Part shown: positions 14,771 through 57,046 of the stretch, in pieces
How the letters are laid out: the number at the start of each line of letters is the position of its first letter
Position numbering within the stretch: the first letter of the stretch is position 1
Source of the DNA: Desulfitobacterium dehalogenans ATCC 51507
GTDB lineage: Bacteria > Bacillota > Desulfitobacteriia > Desulfitobacteriales > Desulfitobacteriaceae
Direction: 5' to 3'
DNA: 64,000 bases
Assembly: GCF_000243155.2 (NCBI RefSeq)
Contig: NC_018017.1
Span: 1,860,001 to 1,924,000 of the forward strand
Position numbers and translations under genes: made by a program
The notes under the pieces: generated by a model
The model's input: only the letters and a program-made list of their open reading frames with translations
Told to the model about the DNA's origin: nothing
The model's database searches: none

Positions 14771-14771
14771 T

Positions 14772-15374: not shown

Positions 15375-15385
15375 GAGGAAATACT

Positions 15386-16465: not shown

Positions 16466-16488
16466 TTCGAAGAGAAAAGGAGCAAATT

Positions 16489-30548: not shown

Positions 30549-31775
30549 TCAAGCCAATAATTTTTCAATAGTGTGAAGCCGTTTAATTTTAAGAGCTGCC
30601 ATGATATCCAGGCGGGTATGGTTATCCGTCAAGGACTTACCTAAGATGTTTTCAATTTTATTCAAGCGGTAGCGCAAGGTATTAGGGTGCATGAAGATCG
30701 CTTTGGCGGTTTTGTTCACGTCAAATTGGTTCTCGGCAAAGCTCTCCAGGAGGGCTATAAGGGAACTTTCCGGATCATCTTGTTTGTGCAATTCCCCCAG
30801 AACATGGACATAGTATTCTTTTAAGTCCTGGAGATCATGTTTATACAGGATTCGTTCCAAGCCGAGTTCACTGAAGAAGGGAACAGGTATTTCTAATAGC
30901 TTTCCCATTTCAAAAGCCACTTTAGCTTCCTGATAACTGCGAAAAAGCTCGGTGGATTCGGAATAAACCTGTCCTACTCCACAGGTTACCAGATTATTTA
31001 ATTCCGTGGTTCTGATTTGAGAAAAAGTTTTTTCAGCAAAACCAAGTATTTCTTCCTTTTGCAAAGCAGATTTATCCGCCTGAAGAGGAACGAGGATCAC
31101 CAGTTCATTTTGGCGGAGGATGAGTGCCGGGTTTTTATAATAGTTATCGATGAAAATTTCTTCTATGATGCGGGAGAGAAAATCCATAAGATGATGCCCC
31201 GGATTATGATGCTCCGGATCAGGAAGGAGAAAAACCATAACCGTATGGGGGCGACTGAAATTCCAGCCCCACACTTCTCCGGTAGCAATGATATCTTCAC
31301 TGCGTTTAAGGTTTCCGTAAAGCAGATCATAGAGAAAGGCATTTTTAAACTTGCTTTGCTCCTGCTTAAGCTCTAACCGGCTCTGGAGGTGGACGGCATA
31401 GAGTGATGATGTATAATCCAACAGGGGTTGAAAGGCTTCTCGATCCGGATTATCTTCATCACTAAGAATGAAAATATACCCAATGACACGGCCAAGGGGA
31501 GCAATAGCACGACCTATGGCACGTACCTTAAAAGTACCCGCAGAGATATGACAGAGAAAAAGGCTTTCGTCATGGATCCGAGGGTCATCCAGTTCAACTT
31601 GAAAGAATTCACAATCATAGTGAGAAGAGGAGGCAACCAGTTTATAAGCAGAAGTTGAAACCAGTACAGGCCGATTAATGACCTTAGCTAAAGTATGGGT
31701 CAGAAGATCTAACCCCTGTCCTGAAGCCATAACCAATTCTTGCATATAATCCGGAACGGAAAATTGCTTGTTCAT
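30549..31775 (-). CDS. PucR/CdaR-type regulator of the first dmsABC-like operon
   Basis: A 408-residue regulator. ATG at 31775 follows AAAGGTGG; the GTG 18 bases upstream overlaps that site. Residues about 1-150 look like a GAF-type sensor domain (ELVMASGQGLDLLTHTLAKV; AIAPLGRVIGYIFIL). Then comes the hallmark LYDLLYGNLKR, a GGDEF-like central domain (CGVGQVYSESTELFRSYQEA) and a C-terminal PucR-type helix-turn-helix (NKTAKAIFMHPNTLRYRLNK). It is transcribed away from the dmsABC genes at 32116. Two close paralogues at 40709 and 50114 sit in the same position relative to their own operons. The ligand is unknown. Confidence 0.88.
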   Translation of the reverse strand: MNKQFSVPDYMQELVMASGQGLDLLTHTLAKVINRPVLVSTSAYKLVASSSHYDCEFFQVELDDPRIHDESLFLCHISAGTFKVRAIGRAIAPLGRVIGYIFILSDEDNPDREAFQPLLDYTSSLYAVHLQSRLELKQEQSKFKNAFLYDLLYGNLKRSEDIIATGEVWGWNFSRPHTVMVFLLPDPEHHNPGHHLMDFLSRIIEEIFIDNYYKNPALILRQNELVILVPLQADKSALQKEEILGFAEKTFSQIRTTELNNLVTCGVGQVYSESTELFRSYQEAKVAFEMGKLLEIPVPFFSELGLERILYKHDLQDLKEYYVHVLGELHKQDDPESSLIALLESFAENQFDVNKTAKAIFMHPNTLRYRLNKIENILGKSLTDNHTRLDIMAALKIKRLHTIEKLLA

Positions 31776-32115
31776 ATAGACCACCTTTCTCACGATTTAC
31801 CAAGGAAAAGCTCAGGGGTTCATTCTAGGCGACTCTTAAAAGTTAGGGTAGAATGGTATTTATAGTTATAGATTAATTTTGATTCTATAAGGGATGATTG
31901 TAAAGTCCTTTAATCTGTATCCCGGAATAAAAAAAGCGTGGCTTTTTTGTACTTGTGAACATATGACCAAAATGGGCGGCAAGCTATACTGATTATAGAT
32001 TCGGGAGCGGCTCTCGTCAAATAAGAGGAAGTATGTTCCTTTTTTATTGCGAAGAGGCACAGAATTTCGCTCAGGCATGATGGAACGCTGATTTAAAAGG
32101 GAGGTTCAAGGTACT
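31776..32115. promoter_or_regulatory. Divergent control region pucR1/dmsABC1
   Basis: 340 bases without a gene. Visible elements are a dyad TATAGATTAATTTTGATTCT (about 31867-31886, closed by ATA), a terminator-like hairpin AAAAAAAGC-GTG-GCTTTTTTG (31929-31949) on the dmsA side, and the string TTTTTTGTACTTGTGAAC just after it. The hairpin could act as a leader attenuator for the operon. Confidence 0.45.
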
Positions 32116-34770: not shown

Positions 34771-34776
34771 GGAAAA

Positions 34777-35355
34777 ATGGGTAAAAAAGGTTTTTACTTT
34801 GATATGGAAGCCTGCATCGGCTGTCGCACTTGCCAGATTGCCTGCAAAGATAAAAATAATAACGATATTGGCGTGTTATACCGTCGGGTAAAGAATTTTG
34901 AGACCGGTGTTTATCCACGACCTGATGCTTTCAACTATTCCTCTTCCTGCAACCACTGTGCCGAGGCCAAATGTGTCAAGGGGTGCCCCACCGGTGCCAT
35001 GCATTATGCAGAGGATGGTACTGTGCAGCACGATAAGGATAAATGCATCGGCTGTAAATATTGCATCTGGAACTGTCCCTATGGTGCACCTCAATTCATT
35101 GAAGAAAGCGGCATCGTGGGGAAATGCGACAGCTGCAAGGGCCTTCGTGACAGCGGAGAAAACCCTGCCTGTGTGGATGCATGTATTATGCGCTGCCTGG
35201 AATTTGGGGACTTAGATGAACTTAAGGCAAAGTATGGCGACCGCTTTGTTCAGGAGTTGCCTATTCTGCCCTCTGCAAAGCTTACAAATCCATCGGTGCT
35301 GATTAAGCCCAAGGATTGTGCTTTAGACTCCAATTCTCGTGAGAAAGAGGTGTAA
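34777..35355 (+). CDS. dmsB: DmsB-like four-cluster Fe-S subunit 1
   Basis: A 192-residue electron-transfer subunit. Four cysteine groups are present: CIGCRTCQIACK, CNHCAEAKCVKGCP, CIGCKYCIWNCP and CDSCKGLR...CVDACIM, giving four [4Fe-4S] clusters as in E. coli DmsB. No signal peptide, so export with DmsA is expected. It starts six bases after dmsA1. The third group has WNCP like DmsB, which distinguishes it from PsrB-type subunits. Confidence 0.93.
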   Translation: MGKKGFYFDMEACIGCRTCQIACKDKNNNDIGVLYRRVKNFETGVYPRPDAFNYSSSCNHCAEAKCVKGCPTGAMHYAEDGTVQHDKDKCIGCKYCIWNCPYGAPQFIEESGIVGKCDSCKGLRDSGENPACVDACIMRCLEFGDLDELKAKYGDRFVQELPILPSAKLTNPSVLIKPKDCALDSNSREKEV

Positions 35356-40708: not shown

Positions 40709-41950
40709 ATGGAGGAGAAGGCTGGAGACGTTAGTATTCTTAACTATATGGAAGAACTGCTCATAGCTTCCGGACAAGGTTTGCAAGCTTTGACAGATGC
40801 TCTGGCTAAGATATTAAGGCTTCCCATTCTTATTTCTACATCCGGATATAATTTGATTTCCTCATCCCTTAGTTGCCCTGATCTTGATTCTTTTCACACG
40901 GATATAGTGAGTGCCAGGATTGATAATGAAACATCATTTTTTTGCAAATTGTCTGCCGGCACTTTTCATTCCAATGCTTGGGGACGAGCGATTGCACCTG
41001 CGGGGCGTGTTATTGGTTATATTTTTATCTTTGTCGACGATGCCGATAGCAATGCGATAATGGAAGCCCATAAACTCATTATCAAGGCAGCTGCATCCTT
41101 ATGTGCAGTCCATCTCCAAAGCCGGGTTGAGTTGCTCAAGGAGCAACAAAAACATCAAGAATCCTTTTTATACGATCTTCTGTATGGGAACCTTAAAACA
41201 GAAGAAGAAATTGTTGCATCCGGAGCCACCTGGGGTTGGAATTTCACTCTACCTCATACCGCTATAATCCTGACAATTCCTGAATTAGATATTCATTCCC
41301 CGGATAAACACTTGATGGATATTCTGAACCACTTTACGGAGAAAGCTCTCATTGATAGGTATTATAAGAAGTTACCTACACTGATAAGGCATAACGAACT
41401 CATTGTGCTTTTGCCCTCTGAGGAGTGGAAGCAGCCTGCCCAAAAGAAAGAAATTCTTGCCTTGATGGACATCCTCTTAGCTCAATTAACAGCTACAGAA
41501 CTTAAGAATCGGGTAATCTGTGGCGTGGGTCAGACCTATGTTAAAGCTACCAATCTTTTTCGGAGCTATCAAGAGGCTAAGGTATCCCTTGAGCTGGGAA
41601 CAGTGATGGGGATAGCCGTTCCTTTCTTCAGTGACATAGGGGTGGAGCGGATCTTCTACAAGCATGATCTTGAGGATTTAAAGGAGTATTATGCTCATGT
41701 TCTTGGCGAACTGCACAAGCAAGATGATGAAGAGCTTTCACTGATCAGCGTTTTAGAAAGCTTTGCTGAGAATCAATTTGAAGTGACGAAAACAGCGGAG
41801 GCTCTCTTTTTGCATCGCAATACACTCCGTTACCGCCTCAATAAGATCGAAACTATTCTGGGGCGTTCGTTGAACGATCACAATACCCGCTTTGATATTA
41901 TGGCCGCACTGAAAATCAAGCGATTGCACAAGATGGATGAGGAATTATGA
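40709..41950 (+). CDS. PucR/CdaR-type regulator of the second dmsABC-like operon
   Basis: A 413-residue paralogue of the regulator at 30549. The same blocks are present: ELLIASGQGLQALTDALAKI (sensor start), LYDLLYGNLKTEEEI, CGVGQTYVKATNLFRSYQEA, and the C-terminal helix-turn-helix TKTAEALFLHRNTLRYRLNK. AAGAAGGAG precedes the ATG. Divergent from dmsA2 across about 310 bases, so it probably controls that operon. The sensor domain is the least conserved part among the three paralogues, consistent with different ligands. Confidence 0.88.
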   Translation: MEEKAGDVSILNYMEELLIASGQGLQALTDALAKILRLPILISTSGYNLISSSLSCPDLDSFHTDIVSARIDNETSFFCKLSAGTFHSNAWGRAIAPAGRVIGYIFIFVDDADSNAIMEAHKLIIKAAASLCAVHLQSRVELLKEQQKHQESFLYDLLYGNLKTEEEIVASGATWGWNFTLPHTAIILTIPELDIHSPDKHLMDILNHFTEKALIDRYYKKLPTLIRHNELIVLLPSEEWKQPAQKKEILALMDILLAQLTATELKNRVICGVGQTYVKATNLFRSYQEAKVSLELGTVMGIAVPFFSDIGVERIFYKHDLEDLKEYYAHVLGELHKQDDEELSLISVLESFAENQFEVTKTAEALFLHRNTLRYRLNKIETILGRSLNDHNTRFDIMAALKIKRLHKMDEEL

Positions 41951-42023: not shown

Positions 42024-42713
42024 TTATAATAAAGCCAAAACTTCATCAAGAACTAAACGATCTGTTTGCAGGAACTGTTGGGTTAAAATAGCCATTTGGG
42101 GATAAAAATGATGAGTTTTGGAGGTTTGCATATCCTTGGCGAAATCCCCGATCCAAACCAGTAAATGCTCCCCCAAAAAGGCTTTTTGATCGTCCAGCAG
42201 TTGTTTGACCTCATCCATAGCCTGCTTATCAAAGTTTTCCAAGGCCAGTTTTGCCAGATGAGCCATAAAATCCAACTCAAAGCCCAGATGATCATCGGCT
42301 TCATGAGGATAATTGGCTGGCAGGAATTGATAGTTGAGGTAGGTGCGCCGCACTTTTAAGGTGCTTTCCTGGAACAAAGCCCGTTCTTTGGTCACATAGA
42401 CGGATTCCCAGGGGGGAGCGGGCAGCTTATGGGGGCCGATCATCAGATAGGTATATTCGCTGGTCAGCTTATCCAGGATGCTGTCAGCCTCGGTGGACAG
42501 AGCCGGCCTTAATTCTGAGAGTAAACTCAGGCAGGCTTGTAAGTGACTGTTATCCTCGTCGAGCATTAACTCCAAGGCTTCCAGGGTGTATTCGTTGGTG
42601 AGGATATCCAGCAGTTCCTGGTTAGGTTCATTGCCAAAAATACGTTGCAGCAACTGATAGAGATAATGCCGGGTGGCCAGAATGATGGCAATTCCGTCTT
42701 CTTGTGAAGTCAT
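42024..42713 (-). CDS. TorD/DmsD-family chaperone at the end of the third operon
   Basis: A 229-residue helical chaperone. ATG at 42713 is selected because AAAGGCGGTG precedes it; the GTG at 42722 overlaps this site. The family signature is clear in EYTYLMIGPHKLPAPPWESVY (about 85-105) and HLGFELDFMAHLAKLALE. It is the only TorD-type gene for the three dmsABC-like operons in this window, so it may serve all three catalytic subunits, which share nearly the same Tat signal. Confidence 0.85.
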   Translation of the reverse strand: MTSQEDGIAIILATRHYLYQLLQRIFGNEPNQELLDILTNEYTLEALELMLDEDNSHLQACLSLLSELRPALSTEADSILDKLTSEYTYLMIGPHKLPAPPWESVYVTKERALFQESTLKVRRTYLNYQFLPANYPHEADDHLGFELDFMAHLAKLALENFDKQAMDEVKQLLDDQKAFLGEHLLVWIGDFAKDMQTSKTHHFYPQMAILTQQFLQTDRLVLDEVLALL

Positions 42714-42761
42714 AGCAGACACCGCCTTTAAGTTTTTTGAGATTAGGATTTCATTCCTGAA

Positions 42762-43337
42762 TTAGACTTTTTTTTCGGTATAATTGGGATCTAAAGCATA
42801 TTTCCTTGGTTTAATTAATAAGGATGGGTTGGTAAGGGTTGAGGAAGGAAGAATGGGCAAATCCTGAACAATATCCGTACCGTGTTTGGCTTCAAGTTCA
42901 TCTAAATCACCAAATTCAAGGCACCGCATCGGGCAGGAATCCACACAGACCGGATTGACGCTCTTGTCACGCAAGCCCTTGCAGCTGTCGCATTTGCCGA
43001 TGATGCCGGTTTCTTCAATGAACTGGGGAACGCCATAGGGACAGTTCCAGGTACAGTACTTACAGCCGATGCATTTATTTTTGTCATGCTGAACCGTACC
43101 GTCATCGGCGTAGTACAACGCATTGGCGGGGCACCCCTTGACACATTTGGCATGGGAACAGTGATGGCAGGCACTGGAATAATGATACAGCCTGGCATGG
43201 GGATAAACGCCTACTTCATAACTGCGGACGTCACGGAAGCTAATGCCCACATCCAGGCGGTTTCTATCCTTGCAGGCTACCTGGCAAGTCCGGCAGCCGA
43301 GGCATTTATTCATATCGAAATAAAACCCTAAGGCCAT
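42762..43337 (-). CDS. Second DmsB-like Fe-S subunit of the third operon
   Basis: A 191-residue four-cluster subunit: CLGCRTCQVACK, CHHCSHAKCVKGCP, CIGCKYCTWNCP and CDSCKGLR...CVDSCPM. It follows the flavin/4Fe-4S membrane protein by 15 bases and has no catalytic subunit of its own. It could replace DmsB3 in the complex, or connect the flavin protein to DmsA3. GAGGAAGGTGAG precedes the ATG. Confidence 0.9.
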   Translation of the reverse strand: MALGFYFDMNKCLGCRTCQVACKDRNRLDVGISFRDVRSYEVGVYPHARLYHYSSACHHCSHAKCVKGCPANALYYADDGTVQHDKNKCIGCKYCTWNCPYGVPQFIEETGIIGKCDSCKGLRDKSVNPVCVDSCPMRCLEFGDLDELEAKHGTDIVQDLPILPSSTLTNPSLLIKPRKYALDPNYTEKKV

Positions 43338-43352
43338 GCTTGCTCACCTTCC

Positions 43353-44717
43353 TCATAGTTTCCAAAGTTGAGGGATATTCAGAGACAATGTTATGGCAAT
43401 CAAAAGGCCGTACACCAGCAACATGACAAAGAATGCTTTTTCTTTGCCGGGTAAACCGGCCCAGCGTATGGGGTCTTGACCGGCGGTGCATTCAGAACAG
43501 CCTGCTTTCGTGTGGGCTGAAGGGGGTTCAAAAGTGGGGTCTGCGTGCTGGTCTGCGGAGCTATGGGGGTGGAAGAACCGCTTGAACTTTCTCTTTACTG
43601 AAGCAAGAAAATTAAGCACAGCCCCCACCGGACAGGCCAACCGGCACCAAACACGATAGAAGAGAATCCCGGTCAGCAGGACCAGGCATAAAGTAAGCCA
43701 GTGGCCGAGATTGCCCTGACCGCCAAAACTTACCGCAAAAGGTTCATAATTGGCGATACTGGGATTGTTAAAAATAAGCGCCGCCATCACGGCAGCCCAG
43801 ACGACTCCCCAGCGGATTTTATGAGCCAGGGCAAGCACAGGCGGCGCAGGATTGAACTTTATGAACCCCAGGAATTTGTAAAGTCCTTCCTGAAGCCCCC
43901 CGAAGGGGCAAAGCCAGGAGCAGTAAAAATTTCTTCCCCAGAGTAAAGTGAGGATAGGAATGCCCAAAGTCAGGATATACCAGAAAGGGCGTTCCAGGGG
44001 AGAGGGCCAATTGCCGCTGAGCAGACTGGTCAGGTTAGCCAGACTCAGGGAAGCGTTGAGGAAAAAGCCCAGGAAAAGAACGGAGCCCGCTAAGAGCCAA
44101 GGGCGTAATTTTTGGCCGCGGCGGGATACGGCGATGAAGACCAGGCCATATAATAGAATCAGCCCCAACTCCGGCCACCCCAAAGCAAGTTGGCTCCCGG
44201 CAGGGACTTGAAGGCCTAATTCGTTTTTGCCGGCCTGCCAGGCTCCCTTACGGACGGCCAGGGCGATTCCATTAACAGTATAGGTGGCCCCGCTTATCCC
44301 GTCAAGGTCGTGGCCCAGCTCAAAGGGATCACGGGCTTCTTTGCCGGTAAATTGGTGCAAATAACCTTCCCTCAGGACTCTGCTCAGATAAGCGGGAGTT
44401 TCACAATTTTCGGTGATGATCACATTTTTAAGAATGCCATCTTTTCCGAGAGAGACGAAGACACTGAGGGGCCCGCCATATCCGGAGGCATCGGCTTCCA
44501 CGGCATATCCAAGAAAATGGTCGTCCGTATCCCATAAGCTGTAGGTCGGATATCCGCCGGCTATGGGCTCGTATCTGGAGACGGCAGGTTCCAGCCGCTG
44601 CAGGGAAGTAAAGGTCTCCTGCTTGTTTGCCGATTGCTGAAAGATCAGAGCGGCCAAGATCAGAACAAAAGCGGTGATAAGGGCGAGCGACCGGGGGGAG
44701 AAATGTGTCTGCTTCAT
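43353..44717 (-). CDS. NosR/RdhC-like membrane flavoprotein with covalent-FMN domain and CxxxCP iron-sulfur motifs
   Basis: A 454-residue membrane protein. After an N-terminal helix (about 12-27), residues about 45-165 form an extracytoplasmic FMN-binding domain with the flavinylation motif DGISGATYT (T145 would carry FMN by a phosphoester bond, added by an ApbE-type transferase). Then follow about five helices with two cysteine motifs, CSWLCP (266-271) and CRLACP (358-363), as in NapH/NosR. The C-terminal eight-cysteine ferredoxin domain of NosR is missing; only GCSEC (407-410) remains before the last helix, as in RdhC/PceC-type proteins. It likely moves electrons between the quinone pool and an outside acceptor. 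Presence in a DMSO-reductase-like operon is unusual. Confidence 0.8.
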   Translation of the reverse strand: MKQTHFSPRSLALITAFVLILAALIFQQSANKQETFTSLQRLEPAVSRYEPIAGGYPTYSLWDTDDHFLGYAVEADASGYGGPLSVFVSLGKDGILKNVIITENCETPAYLSRVLREGYLHQFTGKEARDPFELGHDLDGISGATYTVNGIALAVRKGAWQAGKNELGLQVPAGSQLALGWPELGLILLYGLVFIAVSRRGQKLRPWLLAGSVLFLGFFLNASLSLANLTSLLSGNWPSPLERPFWYILTLGIPILTLLWGRNFYCSWLCPFGGLQEGLYKFLGFIKFNPAPPVLALAHKIRWGVVWAAVMAALIFNNPSIANYEPFAVSFGGQGNLGHWLTLCLVLLTGILFYRVWCRLACPVGAVLNFLASVKRKFKRFFHPHSSADQHADPTFEPPSAHTKAGCSECTAGQDPIRWAGLPGKEKAFFVMLLVYGLLIAITLSLNIPQLWKL

Positions 44718-44729
44718 TCCGGCAGTCCT

Positions 44730-45521
44730 TTAAAGTCCCTTAGCGGTCATAAGGACGGCATAGAACAAATACCTGCTCACCATGATTCCGCCGCTCAAAG
44801 CCAAGGCACCCAGATAGGCCATGCCGGCTTTTCCGGAACCCGCCTGTTCCTTGGCTGGCTTCAAGGAGGCGAATAGCAATAAAGCAGCGCCGGCCAGGAG
44901 CAGGAGAAGGTGAACCTCGAGGAGCAGCCCTGGGGTTTGCCCGCCGAGACCGCTATAATTAAGAAATGTTTCTGCCCCCAGAATGATGGCACCGGCCAGG
45001 GCGATCAGGCTGTATAGTTTTTTGGTTTTTATCCCTATCCCGCTGAATTGAATGGCCAAGAAGAGGGCAAGGCCCAGAATAGCTGTCGCCGTCGCAAAAT
45101 CGATAAGAGGAGATATGCTTTGCCAGCCGGGGCGGCTGGTGCTCATATAGACATTGGCCATAAAAACCACATCAATCACCCCTACGGCACTGGCCGCCCA
45201 GCCAAAACGCTTGACGGAGGGATTGACATATTGCACGACGGCATGGATGATGGCAAGACCAATGAATAAAAGGGAAAAGACCAGTGCCCGGGACAGCCAG
45301 GAATGGCTGAATTGGGAGATGGCATTAAAAATAGACGCCGGTCGGCCCAAGTAAAAAACAAAAGCCAGAAAGCCGATCACGCCCAATAAGGCAGAGGCGA
45401 TGGAGGCATATTTGTTTTCAGTTCTGCCGTTTGTTTTTCCGGCAGCCATTATGGCAATCATGATGCCAATAGCCGCCTGAAGGCCTATGGAGAAGATCAC
45501 CAGTTTAACATTCTGAACCAT
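44730..45521 (-). CDS. Second DmsC-like membrane anchor of the third operon
   Basis: A 263-residue DmsC-family protein with eight helices (LVIFSIGLQAAIGIMIAIMA at the start; FYLGRPASIFNAISQFSHSW and LSRALVFSLL). It is clearly more divergent than the three main DmsC proteins: the usual FLHLG is FYLGR. ATG at 45521 after AAGGGGTGA. It is followed 12 bases later by the flavin/4Fe-4S protein. Probably the quinone-reactive partner of the accessory module. Confidence 0.82.
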   Translation of the reverse strand: MVQNVKLVIFSIGLQAAIGIMIAIMAAGKTNGRTENKYASIASALLGVIGFLAFVFYLGRPASIFNAISQFSHSWLSRALVFSLLFIGLAIIHAVVQYVNPSVKRFGWAASAVGVIDVVFMANVYMSTSRPGWQSISPLIDFATATAILGLALFLAIQFSGIGIKTKKLYSLIALAGAIILGAETFLNYSGLGGQTPGLLLEVHLLLLLAGAALLLFASLKPAKEQAGSGKAGMAYLGALALSGGIMVSRYLFYAVLMTAKGL

Positions 45522-45575
45522 AGTTTCACCCCTTCTATGAACTATAGAAATTATGAAATATAGAACTTATAGCAG

Positions 45576-45618
45576 CAAGTTCCTCTTCCCGCCCCTAAAA
45601 AGCGGGAAAAGGAACTTG
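45576..45618 (-). terminator. Strong intra-operon hairpin between dmsC3 and the accessory module
   Basis: CAAGTTCCT-TTCCCGC pairs with GCGGGAA-AGGAACTTG (one bulge on each side) across a nine-base loop. It has no T-run in the minus direction, so it may be a partial terminator or an mRNA-processing/stability hairpin that separates expression of dmsABC3 from the four genes behind it. Confidence 0.5.
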
Positions 45619-45640
45619 AAGCAGAAAGCAGAAGTCTCGA

Positions 45641-46453
45641 CTAGGAGATAATTTTGATGGCAAAGAAGAGGTAGCGTCCAATGAGCTGGCCTACTACAAC
45701 CAGAGCAGCGGCCCCCAGGATGAAGGAGGCATCTTTGCTCTTTTCCTTGACAGGGAGGAAGAGCAGCACGGCCCCCACCAGGATGGCGGCCCATTTCAGA
45801 ACCATGGCCGGCATCATGCCGCTGAGAATAGCATAGCTCTGTTGCAGAGCATGATTGGTGCTGGCTCCGAAACTATTGTAATAGGGAATCATGGCGATGG
45901 CTTGGATTACGAAGGCTGCGGCTACGGCTATGGCTACGATGGTTTTCATCTTGCCGGTATCTTCCTTCATGCTCAAGGCGAGGAACAGCAGCGCGCCCAT
46001 GGAAATGGCGGCGGCATAGAACTCCACAACAATTGAACCGGACTTCCAGGCGGCAACGCTGGAGGAGGTGTAGACCGAAGCCATGGCCAAGACGTCAACC
46101 AGACCGATGGCGGCAGCCAGAATAATTAAAGCATCGATGGCTTTTTTCGCCTCAGGTTTCAAGTAAATGAGCAAAGCGGCGAGGACGGTCAAGCCGGTAA
46201 AGGCGCTGGTCAGCCAAATCTCCCGGCTCAGCCAGGAGGTGGCGAAGCGGGTGAGGGCATTGACCGCAGCCAAGGGATGGCCCAGATGGAGGAAGGAAGC
46301 GAGAAAGCCCACAATGGCTAACCCGGCGGAAATGGTTACAGCGGTTTTAAAGAGAGCGGTTTTGTTCAGTTGTTTGGCAACAGCCGTAAAGACCATTAAC
46401 CCAGCCGCCGCTTGCACACAAATGGTAAAGATAATTAAGGCGAACTCTTCCAT
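45641..46453 (-). CDS. dmsC: DmsC-like membrane anchor 3
   Basis: A 270-residue anchor with eight helices, opening LIIFTICVQAAAGLMVFTAV and containing FLHLGHPLAAVNALTRFATSW then LSREIWLTSAFTGLTVLAAL. Closest by eye to copy 2, but it keeps the full-length loop containing YYNSFGASTNHALQQSYAIL. GAGGTGTAACT precedes the ATG. Third gene of the dmsABC3 unit. Confidence 0.9.
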   Translation of the reverse strand: MEEFALIIFTICVQAAAGLMVFTAVAKQLNKTALFKTAVTISAGLAIVGFLASFLHLGHPLAAVNALTRFATSWLSREIWLTSAFTGLTVLAALLIYLKPEAKKAIDALIILAAAIGLVDVLAMASVYTSSSVAAWKSGSIVVEFYAAAISMGALLFLALSMKEDTGKMKTIVAIAVAAAFVIQAIAMIPYYNSFGASTNHALQQSYAILSGMMPAMVLKWAAILVGAVLLFLPVKEKSKDASFILGAAALVVVGQLIGRYLFFAIKIIS

Positions 46454-46455
46454 AG

Positions 46456-47031
46456 TTACACCTCCACTTCTTTATACTTGGGGTCCAGGGAGAATTTCCT
46501 GGGGTTGATCAATAAGGAGGGATTGGTAACCTGGGAGGAGGGTAGGGTAGGCAAATCTTTGACCAGGTCAGCCTTATGTTTGGCCGCCAATTGGTCCAGA
46601 TCACCGAACTCCAGGCAGCGCATCAGGCAGGCATCGACGCAAACCGGATTGGCACCGGTATCGCGGAGGTCTTTGCAGCTGTCGCATTTGCCGATGACGC
46701 CGGCTTCTTCAATGAATTGGGGGACACTATAGGGGCAATTCCAGGTGCAGTACTTGCAGCCGACGCATTTTTTGCGATCGTGCTGTACAGTGCCGTCATC
46801 AGCGAAATGCAGGGCCCCGGTGGGGCAGCCTTGAACACATTTGGCTTCGGCGCAATGGTTGCAGGCGCCGGAGTAGTGGTAGACTCTGGCATCGGGAAAA
46901 GAGCCTGTTTCATAGCTTTTGACTTTGCGGAAAATAATGCCCACATCCAGGCGGTTTCTATCTTTGCAGGCTACCTGGCAGGTGCGGCAGCCAATGCATT
47001 TATTGACATCAAAATAAAATCCTAAGGCCAT
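46456..47031 (-). CDS. dmsB: DmsB-like four-cluster Fe-S subunit 3
   Basis: A 191-residue subunit with CIGCRTCQVACK, CNHCAEAKCVQGCP, CVGCKYCTWNCP and CDSCKDLR...CVDACLM. ATG at 47031 is chosen because GAAGGAGGAG precedes it; a longer frame reaching 47079 would overlap dmsA3. Almost identical to copy 2. Electron relay to DmsA3. Confidence 0.92.
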   Translation of the reverse strand: MALGFYFDVNKCIGCRTCQVACKDRNRLDVGIIFRKVKSYETGSFPDARVYHYSGACNHCAEAKCVQGCPTGALHFADDGTVQHDRKKCVGCKYCTWNCPYSVPQFIEEAGVIGKCDSCKDLRDTGANPVCVDACLMRCLEFGDLDQLAAKHKADLVKDLPTLPSSQVTNPSLLINPRKFSLDPKYKEVEV

Positions 47032-47051
47032 TGTAGTTTCTCCTCCTTCGT

Positions 47052-49706
47052 TTAAAGTATAACGACTCTCATGGGCCATAAGTGGTCAGGGGTAAGGGGC
47101 TCACCCTCATATTTTTCCAGGTTGGCTAGGGTAGTATTGTAGCCGGAAACACCTTGGCCGCTGGTTTGAGGATGGCAGAGATAATTATCAGAGCCGGATT
47201 TGTCAATACCAGTTTTCTCATCCAGCTCCAGCCAGGTACCGTGGGGCAGCTCGATATAGCCGGGCATCAGCCGCTGGCTGACGCTGGCCTGACGCAGGAC
47301 TTTGCCATGGGGATTGGTGAGCAGTACGGTATCGCCGTCTTTGATGCCTTTTTCCTCTGCATCCACGGCACTGATAAATACCGGATTGGGCATGGCTTCC
47401 CTGAGCCAGGGCAGGTAGTCAAAACCGGTATGGGCGCGCCTTAAATAGTGAGGATTGGTGACTTGATAAGGATAATCGCCTTTGATCTTTTTATCCCAAT
47501 CTTTAAAGCTCTGTTCATAACCGTTGAGGGGCTGTACATAAGAGGGATAGGGTTTGAGGGTGCTGCGTCCCATACGGTTGATGATGTCGGCCTTGGTTTG
47601 GCAATAGATTTCAAACTTGCCGCTATTGGTAGTAAGGGGGTTTTTCTCCGGATCTTTGACAAAGGCTTCATAGGTGATAGCTCCATAGTTATCGCCCTCG
47701 TGACGTTCAACCTTGTAGATGCCCTTCTCCATCAGCTCGCGCAGACCGATGTGGCCTTGCTGTGGCTTCCCATCCACTTTGCCATATTTTTGCTCCCACC
47801 AGGCGAGATCCTCGGCAGTAATGGTTACTAAGGTTTCATAGTCAGTGCCTTCTTTGTTAATCACCGTAGTACCGGCAATGCAATTGAAGTACTGCTGCTC
47901 TTCCGACAGGGGATAGGCTTGATTCACATCAATGCCTAAGCGCTTGCCAAGCTCTACGGCAATCCATTGATCGCTTTTAGCCTCGAAAAGAGGTTCCATG
48001 ACTCTTGATGGGAAGAACTGCATGTCCCGGTTATACGACGTAAGGTAAGTGTAGGTGCTCTGTTTTTCCCACTGAGTAACAATGGGGAGTACGATATCCG
48101 AGTATTGGGCGCTGATGTTTAAGGAATAAGCACAGCTGAAAACAAAGTCTACCTTGCGATGGGCCTCGATCCCTTTGCCGACACCTTGGGTTGTCTGCAG
48201 GGTGTTGCGCCAGGAATGGATGATGACACGGATATCAATATCCCGCTCTCCCATATAGGTAGGATCCCATAGACTTGAGAAATCTTCCCACGTAGTCCCG
48301 GTTCGGTTGTATTTTCCGTTCAGTACGGCATCCCATAACTCGGGAGCGGTAATCACTTCTTTGCAGGAATTGGGAATGACTGGAGCGCCGGAAGCTCCCA
48401 TCCGGATCAGGTTAGGGCCGCCGTTAGTGGAGCAGTAGTATTGACCAGAGCCACAGGAGTGACCAGGTTTACCGTAATGCCCCCCCATTGCGGCGATGGT
48501 CATCAATAGTTGAGGGAAATCATCGGCGTTATTGCAGCGGGCCGGCGCACTGGCGTGCAAAATGGAGACCTTCTTGTCCTTATGCATTTCTTTGGCAAAC
48601 CAAATAATATCTTCCACCGGTGTGCCGCTGATTTCCGAAGCCCATTCAGGGGTTTTGGGATGATTGTCGTATTTGCCCAGTACATAGTCTTTGAAGTTTT
48701 CGTCAAGTTTGGCATCAGCCGGCATATGATTAGCGTCAAAGCCCACCGTGCAGCGATTGAGAAAATCCCAATCAAGCAAAGGATTGGTGAGGGGGTCGTC
48801 TTCTGTGATCATGACATAGGCTACCGAAAGCAGGAACGCCGTATCTGTACCGGGGCGGACGCGTATCCATTTAGCATCCGTGAGGTTAGCGCTTTCGTTA
48901 TAACTTGGCCCGACATAAATGAACTTGGCGCCGGCTTCTTTGGCATGGATTAAGTTGTGGCTGGGCAATCCAGCTGAAGCCCAGGCAGGGTTGCAGCCAT
49001 ACAGAACAATTGTGTCGCAGTTTAACAGATCCAAACGGTCATTGGCATCACCATAACCACCATTGTGAATCCCCACCATGCCACCGCCATATTTGTAGGT
49101 GCCTACGGATGAAGTATCATCCACGTCGGCATAACCGCCAAAGGCACTGATTGTATTATAAAAATCACACATATTGCTGCCCCAGGTAGGCATCAGGATG
49201 GAGCTGTTCCCATATTTCTCTTTGACGTGTTTTAACTCGGCAGCTACATAATCCAGGGCTTCATCCCAGGAAATCCGTACCCATTCGTCTTTGCCGCGCA
49301 ACGATTTGTCGCCGCCGGTGAGGGGTTCCCAATGTTTGCGTTTCATCGGGTATTTTAAACGATCCGCGCCAAAGGCCTGCTGCTGCTGGGCCCGTCCGCG
49401 CAGGCAGCCTCTCAGCTGGGGCTTGCTGAAGCTGTCCGGTTCGGTATCATCGGTTTTCTGGCGGACCACCACATTGTCCACGACAAGGGCGGCGTTATAA
49501 CATTTATAGCCGCAGTTAAACCAACAGGCGGCAGGTATCCATTCACCTTCCCCGTTGATTGCGGCCGCGTCATATTCCGCTCCCACCGGAGCGAGGGCAG
49601 TGCCGCAGCCGGCAAGGGCCAGGCTGGCCGTTCCGGCTGCAGTGGCAGCCAGGAATGTTCTGCGGCTTATTTGTTTCTCAGTAATTTTTTTGAAAAGATT
49701 TACCAT
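47052..49706 (-). CDS. dmsA: DmsA-like molybdoenzyme catalytic subunit 3 (Tat lipoprotein type)
   Basis: An 884-residue catalytic subunit. ATG at 49706 with AGGAGGTTAAGGTGT ahead; the open frame extends 41 codons further upstream but without a ribosome site and would bury the Tat motif. Tat motif ISRRTFLA (13-20), lipobox LAGC (C34), cluster ligands C61, C65, C69 and C101, presumed molybdenum ligand S200 in DDTSSVGTY. Very similar to copy 2 in all conserved blocks. First gene of a seven-gene minus-strand operon running to 42024. Confidence 0.9.
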   Translation of the reverse strand: MVNLFKKITEKQISRRTFLAATAAGTASLALAGCGTALAPVGAEYDAAAINGEGEWIPAACWFNCGYKCYNAALVVDNVVVRQKTDDTEPDSFSKPQLRGCLRGRAQQQQAFGADRLKYPMKRKHWEPLTGGDKSLRGKDEWVRISWDEALDYVAAELKHVKEKYGNSSILMPTWGSNMCDFYNTISAFGGYADVDDTSSVGTYKYGGGMVGIHNGGYGDANDRLDLLNCDTIVLYGCNPAWASAGLPSHNLIHAKEAGAKFIYVGPSYNESANLTDAKWIRVRPGTDTAFLLSVAYVMITEDDPLTNPLLDWDFLNRCTVGFDANHMPADAKLDENFKDYVLGKYDNHPKTPEWASEISGTPVEDIIWFAKEMHKDKKVSILHASAPARCNNADDFPQLLMTIAAMGGHYGKPGHSCGSGQYYCSTNGGPNLIRMGASGAPVIPNSCKEVITAPELWDAVLNGKYNRTGTTWEDFSSLWDPTYMGERDIDIRVIIHSWRNTLQTTQGVGKGIEAHRKVDFVFSCAYSLNISAQYSDIVLPIVTQWEKQSTYTYLTSYNRDMQFFPSRVMEPLFEAKSDQWIAVELGKRLGIDVNQAYPLSEEQQYFNCIAGTTVINKEGTDYETLVTITAEDLAWWEQKYGKVDGKPQQGHIGLRELMEKGIYKVERHEGDNYGAITYEAFVKDPEKNPLTTNSGKFEIYCQTKADIINRMGRSTLKPYPSYVQPLNGYEQSFKDWDKKIKGDYPYQVTNPHYLRRAHTGFDYLPWLREAMPNPVFISAVDAEEKGIKDGDTVLLTNPHGKVLRQASVSQRLMPGYIELPHGTWLELDEKTGIDKSGSDNYLCHPQTSGQGVSGYNTTLANLEKYEGEPLTPDHLWPMRVVIL

Positions 49707-50113: not shown

Positions 50114-51355
50114 ATGATGGAAAAAAACACTTCAATGCCGAACCCCATGCGGAAGCTGTTGAAAATGTCCGGTAAGGGCCTGGATGCTCTCACTTGCGCC
50201 CTTGCCGAAGTGTTGAATCAGCCCATCCTGGTTGCTACCCCCGCTTATGAAACCATTTCCACCACACTGCTCCATCCGGATCTGGATGCTTTCAGGGTTG
50301 AGATAGAAGGGGATTGGGCGGATAATGAGTCTATATTCTTCTGTACACTATCTACGGAAGCTTTGCGTCTGCAAGGGGCAGGTTGGGCTGTTGCTCCCAA
50401 TGGCCGGGTGTTGGGCTATCTCTTCGTACTGTATGAACAAACCGAGCCGGATTTTGAGGGGTTGCAACCCATCATTGAAACAGCTCTATCCTTATATGCC
50501 ATCCACCTTCAGAACAAGTTGGAGCTGAAGCAGGAAAAGCATAAGACCAAGAATTCTTTCTTCTATGATTTGCTCTATGGGAACCTTAAGCGCAATGAAG
50601 ATATTATTACCATGGGTGAGGTGTGGGGCTGGGATTTCCGCCGGCCCCACAGAGTGCTGCTGCTGGCAACGGAGCTGGAACATCACTCACCCGACTGGCA
50701 CCTTATGGAGGTTCTGCAAAAGATTGTGGACCGCACCTTGATCAATAAATTTTATAAAAACCCTGCCACCACAGTGAACCGCAACGAAGTTGTGGCCATC
50801 ATACCCGGGGCGAGAGAAAAGGGGGCAGAGCAAAAACAGGAAATCCTCTCCATCATGGAACACCTTTCCGGTCAATTCCAAGCAACAGCACCCCAGTACC
50901 GGATATCCTGCGGAGTAGGGCAAGCCTATACTCACCCTAATGACCTCTTTCGCAGTTACCAGGAGGCCAAAGTCGCCTGCGAGATGGGAAGTCTGCTGGA
51001 GGTTGCCGTGCCTTTTTTCAGCGAGATGGGCTTGGAGCGCATCCTTTACAAACATGACTTGGAGGATCTGAAGGAATACTATCATCATGTTCTGGGAGCT
51101 TTACCGGAGGATGAGGGGGAAGATAATCTGCTTTCTCTTCTGGAGAGCTTTGTGGATAACCAGTTCGATATGAATAAGACGGCTCAGGCTACTTTTTTGC
51201 ACCGCAACACCCTTCGTTACCGCTTGAACAAAATCGAAGCCCTTCTCGACCGCTCCCTGACCGATATTGATACCCGCCTGGATCTGGCTGCGGCGTTTAA
51301 GATCAGGCGGCTGCATAAAGAGAGGCTTGCTTCAGACGATCTCAGCGGTATTTAG
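50114..51355 (+). CDS. PucR/CdaR-type regulator 3, between dmsABC3 and the soluble molybdoenzyme genes
   Basis: A 413-residue paralogue of the regulators at 30549 and 40709, with MRKLLKMSGKGLDALTCALA, FYDLLYGNLKRNEDI, CGVGQAYTHPNDLFRSYQEA and NKTAQATFLHRNTLRYRLNK. ATGGAGGAAATGAAGC precedes the ATG. It is divergent from dmsA3 and co-directional with the molybdoenzyme gene starting 61 bases after its stop. It may therefore regulate both units. Confidence 0.88.
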   Translation: MMEKNTSMPNPMRKLLKMSGKGLDALTCALAEVLNQPILVATPAYETISTTLLHPDLDAFRVEIEGDWADNESIFFCTLSTEALRLQGAGWAVAPNGRVLGYLFVLYEQTEPDFEGLQPIIETALSLYAIHLQNKLELKQEKHKTKNSFFYDLLYGNLKRNEDIITMGEVWGWDFRRPHRVLLLATELEHHSPDWHLMEVLQKIVDRTLINKFYKNPATTVNRNEVVAIIPGAREKGAEQKQEILSIMEHLSGQFQATAPQYRISCGVGQAYTHPNDLFRSYQEAKVACEMGSLLEVAVPFFSEMGLERILYKHDLEDLKEYYHHVLGALPEDEGEDNLLSLLESFVDNQFDMNKTAQATFLHRNTLRYRLNKIEALLDRSLTDIDTRLDLAAAFKIRRLHKERLASDDLSGI

Positions 51356-51416
51356 TCATGGCTTATTGAACTAAGAATTATTGAACCAAAGAATCATAAA
51401 AAGGCTGGTGCTAGGT

Positions 51417-53405
51417 ATGCCAACGTTTCGCAATACATGTCCGCGGCATTGTTATAGTTCCTGCAGTATGATTTCCCATATGAGCGGAGGTAAGCTGACC
51501 CGGGTTGTGGGAGACTCCGCCCATGGCTATACCCGGGGAAGACTCTGTGCCAAAGGGTATTCCTTGATTCAATATGCCTTGGACGAATATCGTTTGAAAT
51601 ATCCTTTGCGTCAAGTGCGGCGGGGGTCAGGGGAGTGGCGGCGGATTTCCTGGGACCAGGCCTATGAAATCATCGCCTCCAAAATGATCGAACTGAATAC
51701 CCGCTATGGTTCTAATCTGGGCTTAGGGTATTATAAAGGCAATGGCAATGCCGGCTTGCTGCATCAGGCTGTGGAAGGAATGTTTGCGGGTCTGGGCCCT
51801 CATACCCGACCGACCGGGGATATTTGTTCGGCTACCGGGGAAGCCGCACTTATGGAGACCGTAGGTGAACTAAGTCCTGATCCGGAGGAGATGGGCGATG
51901 CCGGCTTGATCGTGATCTGGGGAGCTAACCCGGCCAATACCAATATCAATCAAATGAAGTTTATCTATGAAGCACGCCAAAAGGGAGTCCCATTGGTGGT
52001 TATCGATCCGCTCCTTACTCATACAGCCAATAGAGCCGATTTATATGTTCAGATCAATCCGGGAACCGATGGGTGGCTGGCTTGGGGTATTGCCAAAATC
52101 TTGATCGAAAGTGGCAGGATCGATAAAAAGTTCATTCAGGAAAAAACCAGAGACTTTGATCAATATAAGCTAGGACTTAAGAAGATTACTCTGGATGAAG
52201 TCTGTTCACAAACAGGAGTCCATTTAAGCGTTGTTGAAGAATTAGCCGCTCTGTATGCCCGCTTTTACCCAGCCGCTAATTGGCTGGGTTTCGGCATGCA
52301 GCGCTATCCCAGTGGCGGAGAATCGGTAAAGGCTGTGGGTGCTCTGGCAGCTCTGACAGGGAGTTTTGCTTCGGTTGGGGGCGGGGTCTATTTTCGCCAC
52401 CGGCCTCAGGAGGAATTTCCTCTGAATATAGCCAAGCATCAGGGAGTAAAGCATCCTTTGCTCACCTCTTCCCGGGAGGTACCGGTCAACGATTTTCCGC
52501 GCAGGGCGATGAAGCTTCAGGAGCCGCCTCTTAAAATGCTTTGGGTTTCCTGTGGCAATCCTTTGGCCCAGGATTATAATCTACGGGTTTGGCGTGATTT
52601 GTTTCAACACATGGAGTTAGTCATTACTGTAGATCTCTATCTGAACAGCACCGCCCGGCAGTCCGACCTTGTCCTGCCGGCTGCTTCCTTCTTTGAGGAA
52701 GAAGATTTGCATGTGAGCTTTTGGCACCACTGGCTTTCCTATAATCAAAAAGTGCTGCCGGCTTTCTATGAATCAAAGAGCGATTTACAGATTGCCCGGG
52801 AATTAACCCGTAAACTCAATGAACTCCGGCCTGGGTTTTCTAATTTTCCCGCGGAAAAAGAACCCTGGGATTGGATAGCAGGGGAGTTGTCTCCGGAGGT
52901 TAGGGAACTTTATGCTTTAGAGGACCCCGCCGATCTCCAAAAGTGCTCCTATAAAAGGAGCAAGGAACCCCTCTCACCGGATTGGAGCTACCGTTTTCCT
53001 GAAATTCAACCTCAACGTTTTCAAGATGTCAGAGAAAGGGATTCATCCCTACTGTTTCCTTACCACCTGCTTACTCCCCAATCCCTGCTTAAATTCCATA
53101 CCCAGTATGAGACCCTTTCCTGGCTTAATTCAGAGAATAGGGAAGAACCCATGATTGAACTGGCGGAGGAAATCGCCTGCAAGCATAATATCCGTGAAGA
53201 TTCTTGGGTTGAAATCTATAATGAGAATGGCTTTGTAAGTGGCCGGGCTAAAATCAATCCCTATCTTCCGGAGAAAATTATCCTGGTGGAGCAAAGTGAC
53301 CGTTATCCGATCAATCATCTGATCAGCGGTCAAGGGAAAGAAGGGGAAAGTATCCCTTATTTTGATTGCCGAGTCAACCTCAGGAGGGTGCGCAAGGATG
53401 TTTAA
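51417..53405 (+). CDS. Soluble molybdopterin oxidoreductase, Cys-type, without export signal
   Basis: About 662 residues. ATG at 51417 follows GGTGCTAGGT; the frame is open to a TTG at 51381 but that extension has no Tat motif either. The protein begins directly with the cluster motif C8, C12, C16, C44 (TCPRHCYSSC...GRLCAKG). The probable molybdenum ligand is C137 in GDICSATGEAAL. Later blocks are WGANPANTNINQMKF, WVSCGNPLAQDYN and the MGD-binding end. The lack of a signal indicates a cytoplasmic enzyme. The 8-base overlap with the Fe-S gene shows coupled translation. Substrate unknown; formate dehydrogenase-like or thiosulfate-reductase-like enzymes are possible relatives. Confidence 0.85.
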   Translation: MPTFRNTCPRHCYSSCSMISHMSGGKLTRVVGDSAHGYTRGRLCAKGYSLIQYALDEYRLKYPLRQVRRGSGEWRRISWDQAYEIIASKMIELNTRYGSNLGLGYYKGNGNAGLLHQAVEGMFAGLGPHTRPTGDICSATGEAALMETVGELSPDPEEMGDAGLIVIWGANPANTNINQMKFIYEARQKGVPLVVIDPLLTHTANRADLYVQINPGTDGWLAWGIAKILIESGRIDKKFIQEKTRDFDQYKLGLKKITLDEVCSQTGVHLSVVEELAALYARFYPAANWLGFGMQRYPSGGESVKAVGALAALTGSFASVGGGVYFRHRPQEEFPLNIAKHQGVKHPLLTSSREVPVNDFPRRAMKLQEPPLKMLWVSCGNPLAQDYNLRVWRDLFQHMELVITVDLYLNSTARQSDLVLPAASFFEEEDLHVSFWHHWLSYNQKVLPAFYESKSDLQIARELTRKLNELRPGFSNFPAEKEPWDWIAGELSPEVRELYALEDPADLQKCSYKRSKEPLSPDWSYRFPEIQPQRFQDVRERDSSLLFPYHLLTPQSLLKFHTQYETLSWLNSENREEPMIELAEEIACKHNIREDSWVEIYNENGFVSGRAKINPYLPEKIILVEQSDRYPINHLISGQGKEGESIPYFDCRVNLRRVRKDV

Positions 53406-53946
53406 GAGAAAGGGCTTTCTGTTTAATGCCAATCTCTGCATAGGATGCCGGGCTTGTGAGATGGCCTGCCGCAATGAAAATCATACACCGGCTAATATAC
53501 ACTGGCGGCATGTCAAGGAAATAGACCTGGGGACCTATCTGTCCATGGCCTGCAACCATTGTGACAGCCCGGAATGTTTCCGTGTCTGCCCCCAGCATGC
53601 CTTTAACAAAAGAAAAGACGGGATTGTTGAGATTGATTCTTCCCTTTGCAACGGCTGCCGTCTCTGTGTGAAGGCCTGCCCTTATGATGCTCCCCAGTAC
53701 AACATCAATACCAATAAGGTGACCCGCTGCCAGATGTGCTATCCTCGTCAGGACCATGGGCTGCCCCCAGCCTGCGTTGAGGCTTGCACCACGGGGGCAT
53801 TGACAACCATAGAGCTTAATGATCCTCGGCTGCCTGAAACGGTGCAAGTCATTCCAGGATTTACAGATATCCGCTTAACAAAACCTTCAATTCTCTTTTA
53901 TCCGCCGCGGCCGAAGAAGAGATACTTTCTTAAACAGAGTGAGTAA
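53398..53946 (+). CDS. Four-cluster ferredoxin-type partner of the soluble molybdoenzyme
   Basis: A 182-residue subunit with CIGCRACEMACR, CNHCDSPECFRVCP, CNGCRLCVKACP and CQMCYPRQ...CVEACTT. ATG at 53398 lies inside the last codons of the catalytic gene, after AGGAGGGTGCGCAAGG. No membrane anchor gene follows, so its electron partner is probably a soluble carrier or an anchor encoded elsewhere. Confidence 0.9.
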   Translation: MFKRKGFLFNANLCIGCRACEMACRNENHTPANIHWRHVKEIDLGTYLSMACNHCDSPECFRVCPQHAFNKRKDGIVEIDSSLCNGCRLCVKACPYDAPQYNINTNKVTRCQMCYPRQDHGLPPACVEACTTGALTTIELNDPRLPETVQVIPGFTDIRLTKPSILFYPPRPKKRYFLKQSE

Positions 53947-55739: not shown

Positions 55740-56426
55740 TTACTCTAGCTCATCTCTCTCTATTCCGATCCAGACCTCCGTCAGGCCTGCGACTCCACGA
55801 TAGAATTCTGAGTTTGTTCCTCGGTCAACAGCTTGAGAAAGATCTGTAATCCAGCTGCCTAAATGCGTTTTCAGAAAATCAGTCTGCATCTTACGGATGG
55901 AGATCGGATCTTTTTCCTTATCTTCATTGGCCATGTCAAATTCCAGAGAACATAGATAGGCCATGAAATAAAGTTCTAAGGCAATATGGTCCGGTAAGTC
56001 CGTAAAATCATCGGAAAGCTCAAGCCCGGCGGAGCGATAGAAACGTTTTGCTGCAATAGCTGCATCTCCCATCACGACTCCGATCTCATTGTCATCGTCT
56101 CTTGTTTTGTAAACGGATTCATAGGGCGGCGCTACTACATGCCCAGGGCCGACGAAAAGGCGGCTGTATTCCACTTTCATGTCCTGCAAGATTTCCGCAG
56201 GGGATCGCCCTTGGGATTGGACGCCAAAATCTTTGACTCTAGCTAATTCACGGGCTACTTTTCCCTCTTCCACCAGACCCAGGGTCCTTTGCAATGCCTC
56301 GGTCAATGAACCTTGAACAAGGCTTGCCACCAGGTCTTCCGATGGCTGCACAAAGCACTGAGACAATAACGTGTAGATGTTTCCACGCACTTGGGTTATT
56401 TGTTTTGCTTCTTCTGTAATGCTCAT
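55740..56426 (-). CDS. TorD-family chaperone of the 55.7-59.5 kb molybdoenzyme
   Basis: A 228-residue chaperone. ATG at 56426 follows AAAGGTGGTGGC; a TTG at 56450 lies upstream of that site. The signature EYSRLFVGPGHVVAPPYESV (about 88-107) is complete, and IALELYFMAYLCSLEFDMAN follows. Last gene of a three-gene operon, so its client is the catalytic subunit encoded at 57047. Confidence 0.88.
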   Translation of the reverse strand: MSITEEAKQITQVRGNIYTLLSQCFVQPSEDLVASLVQGSLTEALQRTLGLVEEGKVARELARVKDFGVQSQGRSPAEILQDMKVEYSRLFVGPGHVVAPPYESVYKTRDDDNEIGVVMGDAAIAAKRFYRSAGLELSDDFTDLPDHIALELYFMAYLCSLEFDMANEDKEKDPISIRKMQTDFLKTHLGSWITDLSQAVDRGTNSEFYRGVAGLTEVWIGIERDELE

Positions 56427-56464
56427 TATAGCCACCACCTTTGAGCTCAACTGGTTTTTTATTT

Positions 56465-57034
56465 TTAAGGTAAGATATAGTAGGCTGCGGGACCGGTACC
56501 CAATTCTGATTTAATGGTCTTTGCCGTTTGACTGCTGACTAGTTTGGCGGCTTCTGAATTGGCATCATTGAGATCGCCATAGGTAATTGCCCGGCCCGGA
56601 CAACAGTAGACACACATAGGGTCTTTGCCCTCCTCCAGCCGATGCATGCATAGGGTGCATTTATCAACCTTTTTGCTCTCCTTATCCATTTGTCTGGAGC
56701 CATAAGGACAAGCAGCCACGCATACGCCACAGCCGATGCAGTCTTCCTTCACCACATAGACAATGCCGTCTTCTCTTTTCTTTGAAGCACCGGTGGGGCA
56801 GACAGGAACACAGGGAGCGTTGTCACAGTGCTGACAAGGTACCGGAACGAAATTTCTTACCGGGTTCGGATAGGTCCCGGTAGGTTTATCAAAGACTTCC
56901 GCCTGATGATCATCCAGCACGCGAATCCGTGCCAGCCCGGCAGCTACTGTATTTTCCATTTTGCAGGATACGGTACAGGTCTTGCATCCTACGCACCGTT
57001 TCACATTAATCACAAATCCCATTCTCTTTGCCAT
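56465..57034 (-). CDS. Four-cluster Fe-S subunit of the 57 kb molybdoenzyme
   Basis: A 189-residue ferredoxin-type subunit: CVGCKTCTVSCK, CQHCDNAPCVPVCP, CIGCGVCVAACP and CTLCMHRL...CVYCCPG. It is closer to PsrB/NrfC-like subunits than to DmsB (no WNCP). GGGGGAG precedes the ATG; it starts 12 bases after the catalytic gene. No membrane anchor gene follows. Confidence 0.92.
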   Translation of the reverse strand: MAKRMGFVINVKRCVGCKTCTVSCKMENTVAAGLARIRVLDDHQAEVFDKPTGTYPNPVRNFVPVPCQHCDNAPCVPVCPTGASKKREDGIVYVVKEDCIGCGVCVAACPYGSRQMDKESKKVDKCTLCMHRLEEGKDPMCVYCCPGRAITYGDLNDANSEAAKLVSSQTAKTIKSELGTGPAAYYILP

Positions 57035-57046
57035 GGTTATCTCCCC

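Follow-up and report, generated by a model that had tools for sequence, protein, structure and literature searches.

Introduction

RdhC and NosR are membrane flavoproteins that combine a flavin mononucleotide (FMN) domain with membrane CX3CP motifs, and the way in which they pass electrons is debated. RdhC proteins are recognized by an [S/T]G[A/S]TX[S/T] motif and two CX3CP motifs, and PceC carries a covalently bound FMN on the exocytoplasmic face (PMC5928378). According to the main text of Meheust et al. (2021; PMC8238504), flavinylated NapH-like systems comprise a PF12801 membrane protein with an N-terminal FMN-binding domain, used in a modular way with extracytosolic oxidoreductases, and the partners named are NosZ, PceA, NirS and ExaA; the words "molybdopterin" and "DMSO" are absent from that main text, while the supplementary tables may list molybdoenzyme neighbors. 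In the dimethyl sulfoxide (DMSO) reductase DmsABC of Escherichia coli, the quinol site of DmsC involves S62, H65, S82 and E87; mutants with H65 replaced no longer oxidize quinol, and E87 has an important part in coordinating it (PMC8076601). Here, we describe a seven-gene locus of Desulfitobacterium dehalogenans ATCC 51507 in which an RdhC/NapH-like protein is tied to this enzyme family with a known electron route. It lies within a window of 64,000 nucleotides, the whole stretch of DNA analyzed (positions 1860001-1924000 of the 4,321,753-base single-contig genome).

The list of open reading frames, together with Pfam and NCBIfam searches, gave seven genes on the minus strand in the order dmsA-dmsB-dmsC (here dmsABC3), then a second, divergent dmsC (dmsC'), the FMN protein gene, a second dmsB (dmsB') and torD, with successive gaps of 17, 2, 119, 12, 15 and 39 bp. 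An original prediction for this DNA had proposed such an operon, in which a DmsC/FMN/DmsB/TorD module follows dmsABC, and all of its open reading frames, domains and motifs were confirmed; it was also right that the locus contains no second catalytic subunit, many others being found elsewhere in the genome. As in E. coli, the A, B and C subunits share the same domains and DmsC3 has its quinol residues; unlike here, the E. coli dmsABC locus has neither a second B/C pair nor an FMN protein. The main point, which that prediction missed, is the loss of quinol-site residues in DmsC'. Flavinylated NapH-like modules are already known, and what is new is a DMSO-reductase-type operon variant combined with this loss. 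We tentatively favor, with a confidence that stops a little short of even, a reading in which DmsB', DmsC' and the FMN protein would offer DmsA3 an alternative electron input fed by flavin, with DmsC' as a quinol-blind anchor reminiscent of ActF of alternative complex III.

Loss of quinol-site residues in DmsC'

DmsC' (44730..45521, minus strand) belongs to the DmsC family according to PF04976 (52.6 bits against a cut-off of 22.3, matched over residues 4-176 only). It was compared with the DmsC proteins of the genome and of the class, plus E. coli DmsC (MG1655 record), in an alignment of 45 rows. Three of these represent DmsC': the copy in the window, a second retrieval of that gene, and its orthologue from a second species. 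At the positions of S62, H65, S82 and E87 (E. coli numbering), DmsC' displays F, Y, S and A, and its orthologue F, Y, S and V. All 42 other rows retain the four residues, save for one H65D replacement, and DmsC3 (45641..46453, minus strand; PF04976, 109.9 bits) has all four. DmsC' therefore lacks three of the four quinol-site residues, including both of those shown to be important by mutants. Its AlphaFold model has eight long helices in an NrfD-like fold, and the best Foldseek matches were the ActC chains of alternative complex III (ACIII) and PsrC, with ActF at rank 4; no solved structure matching DmsC' by sequence was found.

Two other DmsC loci may be mentioned here. One DmsC of the D. dehalogenans genome (L087, 7777-8574, the same gene as L077, 1486) has Asp instead of His65, as PsrC/TtrC-type subunits usually do. 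At another locus (L082, 3931-14377; genome 1206.9-1217.4 kb), a tandem TorD-dmsABC-dmsABC arrangement is continued by one more DmsC, whose quinol residues are intact, and by a hydrophobic protein of 168 residues that contains several histidines and matches no Pfam family.

The FMN protein and its operon contexts

The gene of the FMN protein (43353..44717, minus strand) encodes a PF04205 (FMN_bind) domain and two PF12801 (Fer4_5) stretches. Its motifs are SGATYT (residues 142-147), CSWLCP (266-271) and CRLACP (358-363), and the candidate flavin-bearing Thr145 and the CX3CP cysteines C266/C270 and C358/C362 are invariant in 16 relatives. The protein thus carries the RdhC motifs, has several membrane helices like RdhC/PceC, and shares roughly 30-43% identity with RdhC-type proteins of the same class; unlike them, it has no rdhA among the genes of its operon or their immediate neighbors in either species, and membership of RdhC by context was rejected for this reason. 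As a PF12801 membrane protein with an FMN-binding domain, it also fits the flavinylated NapH-like definition, in line with the two ApbE genes that a search suggested by the original prediction revealed in the genome. What sets it apart from the described NapH-like systems is its partner, an operon of the DMSO-reductase family that also encodes a second DmsB and a DmsC deprived of quinol residues. The resemblance to NosR is limited to the FMN domain and the membrane CX3CP motifs: the NosR model scored 69.6 bits against a cut-off of 1000, with a partial match over residues 185-375, the domain search returned FMN_bind and Fer4_5 only, with no NosR-type C-terminal 2[4Fe-4S] ferredoxin domain, and the operon has no nosZ. 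Of the NosR/RdhC label initially given to this protein, the RdhC-like or NapH-like part is thus retained and the NosR part abandoned. In an AlphaFold model (mean predicted local distance difference test score, pLDDT, 75), the FMN domain matches RnfG/NqrC, while a structure search with this model found no PDB counterpart of the membrane half; the models of the FMN protein and DmsC' draw on few aligned sequences, 8 in one case and 4 in the other.

The genome contains 17 DmsC-family genes and 11 FMN_bind domains, and neighborhoods were read for 76 relatives of the FMN protein. Most of them adjoin rdhA, as RdhC does, but three kinds of molybdoenzyme operon also include an FMN gene: type (a), the dmsA3 seven-gene operon; type (b), ordered A-B-NrfD-TorD-polyferredoxin-FMN, at about nine loci including one (L050) in the D. 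dehalogenans genome; and type (c), ordered A-B-TorD-NrfD-NrfD-FMN, in the D. dehalogenans genome (L060) and in the second species (L059). In a maximum-likelihood tree, the FMN proteins of types (a) and (b) form one clade (support 100/99), apart from those linked to rdhA, and those of type (c) are placed elsewhere among RdhC-type proteins, in a different and likewise well-supported clade. RdhC-like proteins have thus been recruited to molybdoenzyme operons at least twice. A scan of genome contigs returned mostly NosR/RdhC matches, and none of the loci read from it added a further link to a molybdoenzyme. In type (b), the poly-[4Fe-4S] protein encoded just before the FMN gene matches ferredoxin-type domains only, which is consistent with a cytosolic electron source for the FMN protein.

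One type (b) operon (L058, 8425-11627, in genome G030) has its FMN, polyferredoxin and NrfD genes cut into shorter pieces and is apparently eroding. Elsewhere (L081, 7766-12494; genome 22.8-27.5 kb), a DMSO-reductase-like operon ends in a different flavin accessory, a 287-residue protein with membrane helices, several histidines and FMN_bind, MsrQ-like by eye.

The type (c) operons offer a second instance of quinone-site loss. There, two NrfD genes stand in a row before the FMN gene. The product of the nearer one carries N where the quinone-site acid would be expected (MNLG), whereas the other copy carries D (LDLG); D or E fills this position in the remaining NrfD proteins of two alignments. 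In types (a) and (c), the two in which the FMN gene has a DmsC or NrfD gene as its immediate upstream neighbor, the product of that neighbor is thus without the quinone-site residue, and each of these types pairs one intact with one defective DmsC/NrfD. Counting 20-32 sequence groups of DmsC and 21-22 of NrfD, two losses would fall by chance on the two FMN-adjacent groups in about 1 of 435 cases with 30 groups and 1 of 1225 with 50, a rough figure given the mildness of D to N and the fact that the second case was looked at after the first. DmsC' and the type (c) NrfD would be new candidates for subunits of this kind, each of separate origin.

DmsB' and its catalytic partner

DmsB' (42762..43337, minus strand) retains, in alignment with E. 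coli DmsB, 16 of 16 cysteines for four [4Fe-4S] clusters, and is closely related to DmsB2 and DmsB3; its TIGR02951 score of 187 bits lies under the equivalog cut-off of 214. DmsB3 (46456..47034, minus strand; TIGR02951, 191 bits) likewise has every cluster cysteine aligned with E. coli DmsB. Among the aligned Desulfitobacterium DmsB proteins, only one position is fixed in DmsB' against an otherwise invariant residue. Since all the cysteines are present and a single fixed difference was found, DmsB' should still fit onto a DmsA. Within the operon, a single DmsA is encoded, DmsA3 (47052..49706, minus strand), a DmsA/YnfE-like molybdopterin catalytic subunit (PF00384, PF01568) with a twin-arginine (Tat) export signal (SRRTF), scoring 413.5 bits with TIGR02166, under the cut-off of 777.7.

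Conservation and selection

The same seven-gene order was found in one other species of the genus (locus L042), with protein identities of 72-92%. Between the two species, the ratio of nonsynonymous to synonymous substitution rates (dN/dS) was about 0.06-0.24 across all seven genes, as expected under purifying selection: dN and dS were 0.16 and 0.68 for dmsC', 0.155 and 0.78 for the FMN gene, and 0.10 and 0.72 for dmsB'. The order, being kept in a second species under purifying selection, is therefore not an accident of one genome; restriction to this genome would have told against the original prediction. No third copy of the arrangement was found in 83 genomes of the class or in 398 genomes drawn from the phylum. 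In these class and phylum searches, the next relatives after the L042 copies shared about 40-42% identity or less for DmsC and 46% or less for the FMN protein; the phylum-wide searches beyond the class gave no further DmsC'-FMN pair, only RdhC-like relatives. The seven-gene arrangement is thus real and maintained, but narrow.

A proposed alternative electron input and rival explanations

From a mechanistic point of view, DmsB' would replace DmsB3 on DmsA3, or on its close paralogues DmsA2 and DmsA1, and would be anchored by DmsC', whose normal menaquinol site would be unusable. The FMN protein would supply the electrons of this putative complex: its CX3CP cysteines would carry them across or within the membrane to an FMN bound covalently at the outer face, and the clusters of DmsB' would receive them from there; covalent attachment and outer-face location are assumed here because both are known for PceC (PMC5928378). 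The FMN protein might itself take electrons from menaquinol; type (b) suggests a cytosolic iron-sulfur protein as another possible donor. One enzyme could then be fed in two ways, by menaquinol through DmsB3-DmsC3 or by the flavin route. The two electron inputs envisaged in the original prediction are partly supported by the quinol-residue losses in DmsC' and in the type (c) NrfD, the flow of electrons itself being what we infer. The locus provides a clean test case of whether RdhC/NosR-like flavoproteins replace quinol as a donor, given that the quinol residues are gone in the neighboring subunit.

A broader proposal, which we hold still more tentatively, is that of a quinone-bypass input: subunits of the DmsC/NrfD family may have abandoned quinol and serve to link an iron-sulfur subunit with a flavinylated NapH-like protein, which would give a single catalytic subunit two possible supplies, menaquinol or a flavin/cytosolic iron-sulfur route. 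This would have arisen at least twice in molybdoenzyme operons of the genus.

Several observations weigh against the flavin-fed input. In both species, DmsC' retains Ser82, and Tyr65 as well as a His beside Ser82 are new, so that the site may have been rebuilt for another ligand, not lost. The NrfD of type (b), where TorD and polyferredoxin genes stand between NrfD and FMN, retains its D; the D to N change in the type (c) NrfD is a mild one; and the independent cases are only two, the second having been examined after the first. Among the genomes searched, the operon is limited to two species of one genus. Lastly, the two halves of the operon are split by the 119-bp gap between dmsC3 and dmsC' and by a strong hairpin within it, and may not be co-expressed.

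This stem-loop (45577..45617, minus strand), identified by folding and by alignment of the gap in both species, is common to both and is not followed by a T-run. A terminator or a promoter in the gap was rejected, there being no T-run and no such element listed there, and promoter-like sites across the region showed no excess over shuffled sequences. The 23-base core of the hairpin occurs once in the genome, even with up to 3 mismatches allowed, and a genome-wide repeat was therefore rejected. One possible effect of the hairpin is that the two halves are expressed at unequal levels.

Among the rival explanations, an unlikely one is that DmsC' acts as an auxiliary resembling ActF of ACIII: DmsA3B3C3 would oxidize menaquinol, DmsC' would be a quinone-free subunit, in that complex or in a dimeric one, that couples to ion movement, and the FMN protein would tune or couple it. 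The structural matches to ActC, PsrC and, further down, ActF are in line with this, as is the pairing of intact and defective subunits in types (a) and (c); ActF indeed has an NrfD-like fold, no normal quinone site and a gene beside that of a quinone-binding subunit. By contrast with ActF, however, DmsC' falls in the DmsC family, adjoins its own DmsB and an FMN protein, and has lost three site residues while keeping Ser82, which ActF lacks. A second complete DmsB is left unexplained on its own by this proposal, and the transfer of electrons from menaquinol to DMSO releases energy without any help.

We find it equally improbable that the FMN protein and DmsB'C' serve maturation or reactivation, by reductively activating or repairing the molybdenum center or the clusters of DmsA3, as discussed for NosR and NosZ. 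Deletion of the NosR FMN domain abolishes NosZ activity, in a study cited in PMC5928378, FMN proteins of this kind accompany chemically different reductases both in the neighborhoods read here and in PMC8238504, and torD (42024..42722, minus strand; PF02613, 115.7 bits), the gene of a TorD/DmsD-type chaperone, closes the same gene series. It is not obvious, however, why such a role would call for a complete second DmsB together with a remodeled DmsC, and no DmsC'-FMN-DmsB' module accompanies the neighboring dmsABC1 and dmsABC2, or dmsABC1 of the second species.

More doubtful still is a remodeled quinone site, where Tyr65, the new His and Ser82 would let DmsC' oxidize a different quinol, or quinol at a different potential, the FMN protein being a parallel accessory. 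That these three residues are common to both species speaks for it; both quinol residues proven by mutation are nevertheless gone (PMC8076601), and the D. hafniense DCB-2 genome paper (PMC3306737) reports a complete menaquinone pathway and no ubiquinone pathway. The passages found in that paper do not describe a dms-FMN arrangement. That DmsC' would be a decaying duplicate, and the module a leftover, was rejected as very improbable, since the most diverged protein of the seven, with its partial PF04976 match, is still under purifying selection (dN/dS about 0.24), has the same fold and no frameshifts, and keeps its place in two species.

Neighboring genes

A PucR-type regulator gene (50114..51355, plus strand) is divergent from the operon and possibly controls it; its orthologue, with 79% identity, occupies the same place before dmsA3 in L042. 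A PucR-type regulator is located near each of the three dmsABC operons (30549-31793, 40709-41950 and 50114-51355), and the three look interrelated, the one at 40709-41950 carrying PF13556. Three further molybdoenzyme operons or gene pairs of the window (12065-17169, 51381-53946 and 55740-59482) are without FMN proteins. Finally, dmsA1 and dmsB1 hardly differ between the two species (window 32116-35355 versus L042 2091-5331), with a dS of 0.25-0.28 as against 0.7-1.0 for the adjoining dmsC1 and for the dms3 genes in the same species pair, a contrast which suggests that dmsA1B1 alone was recently transferred or gene-converted.

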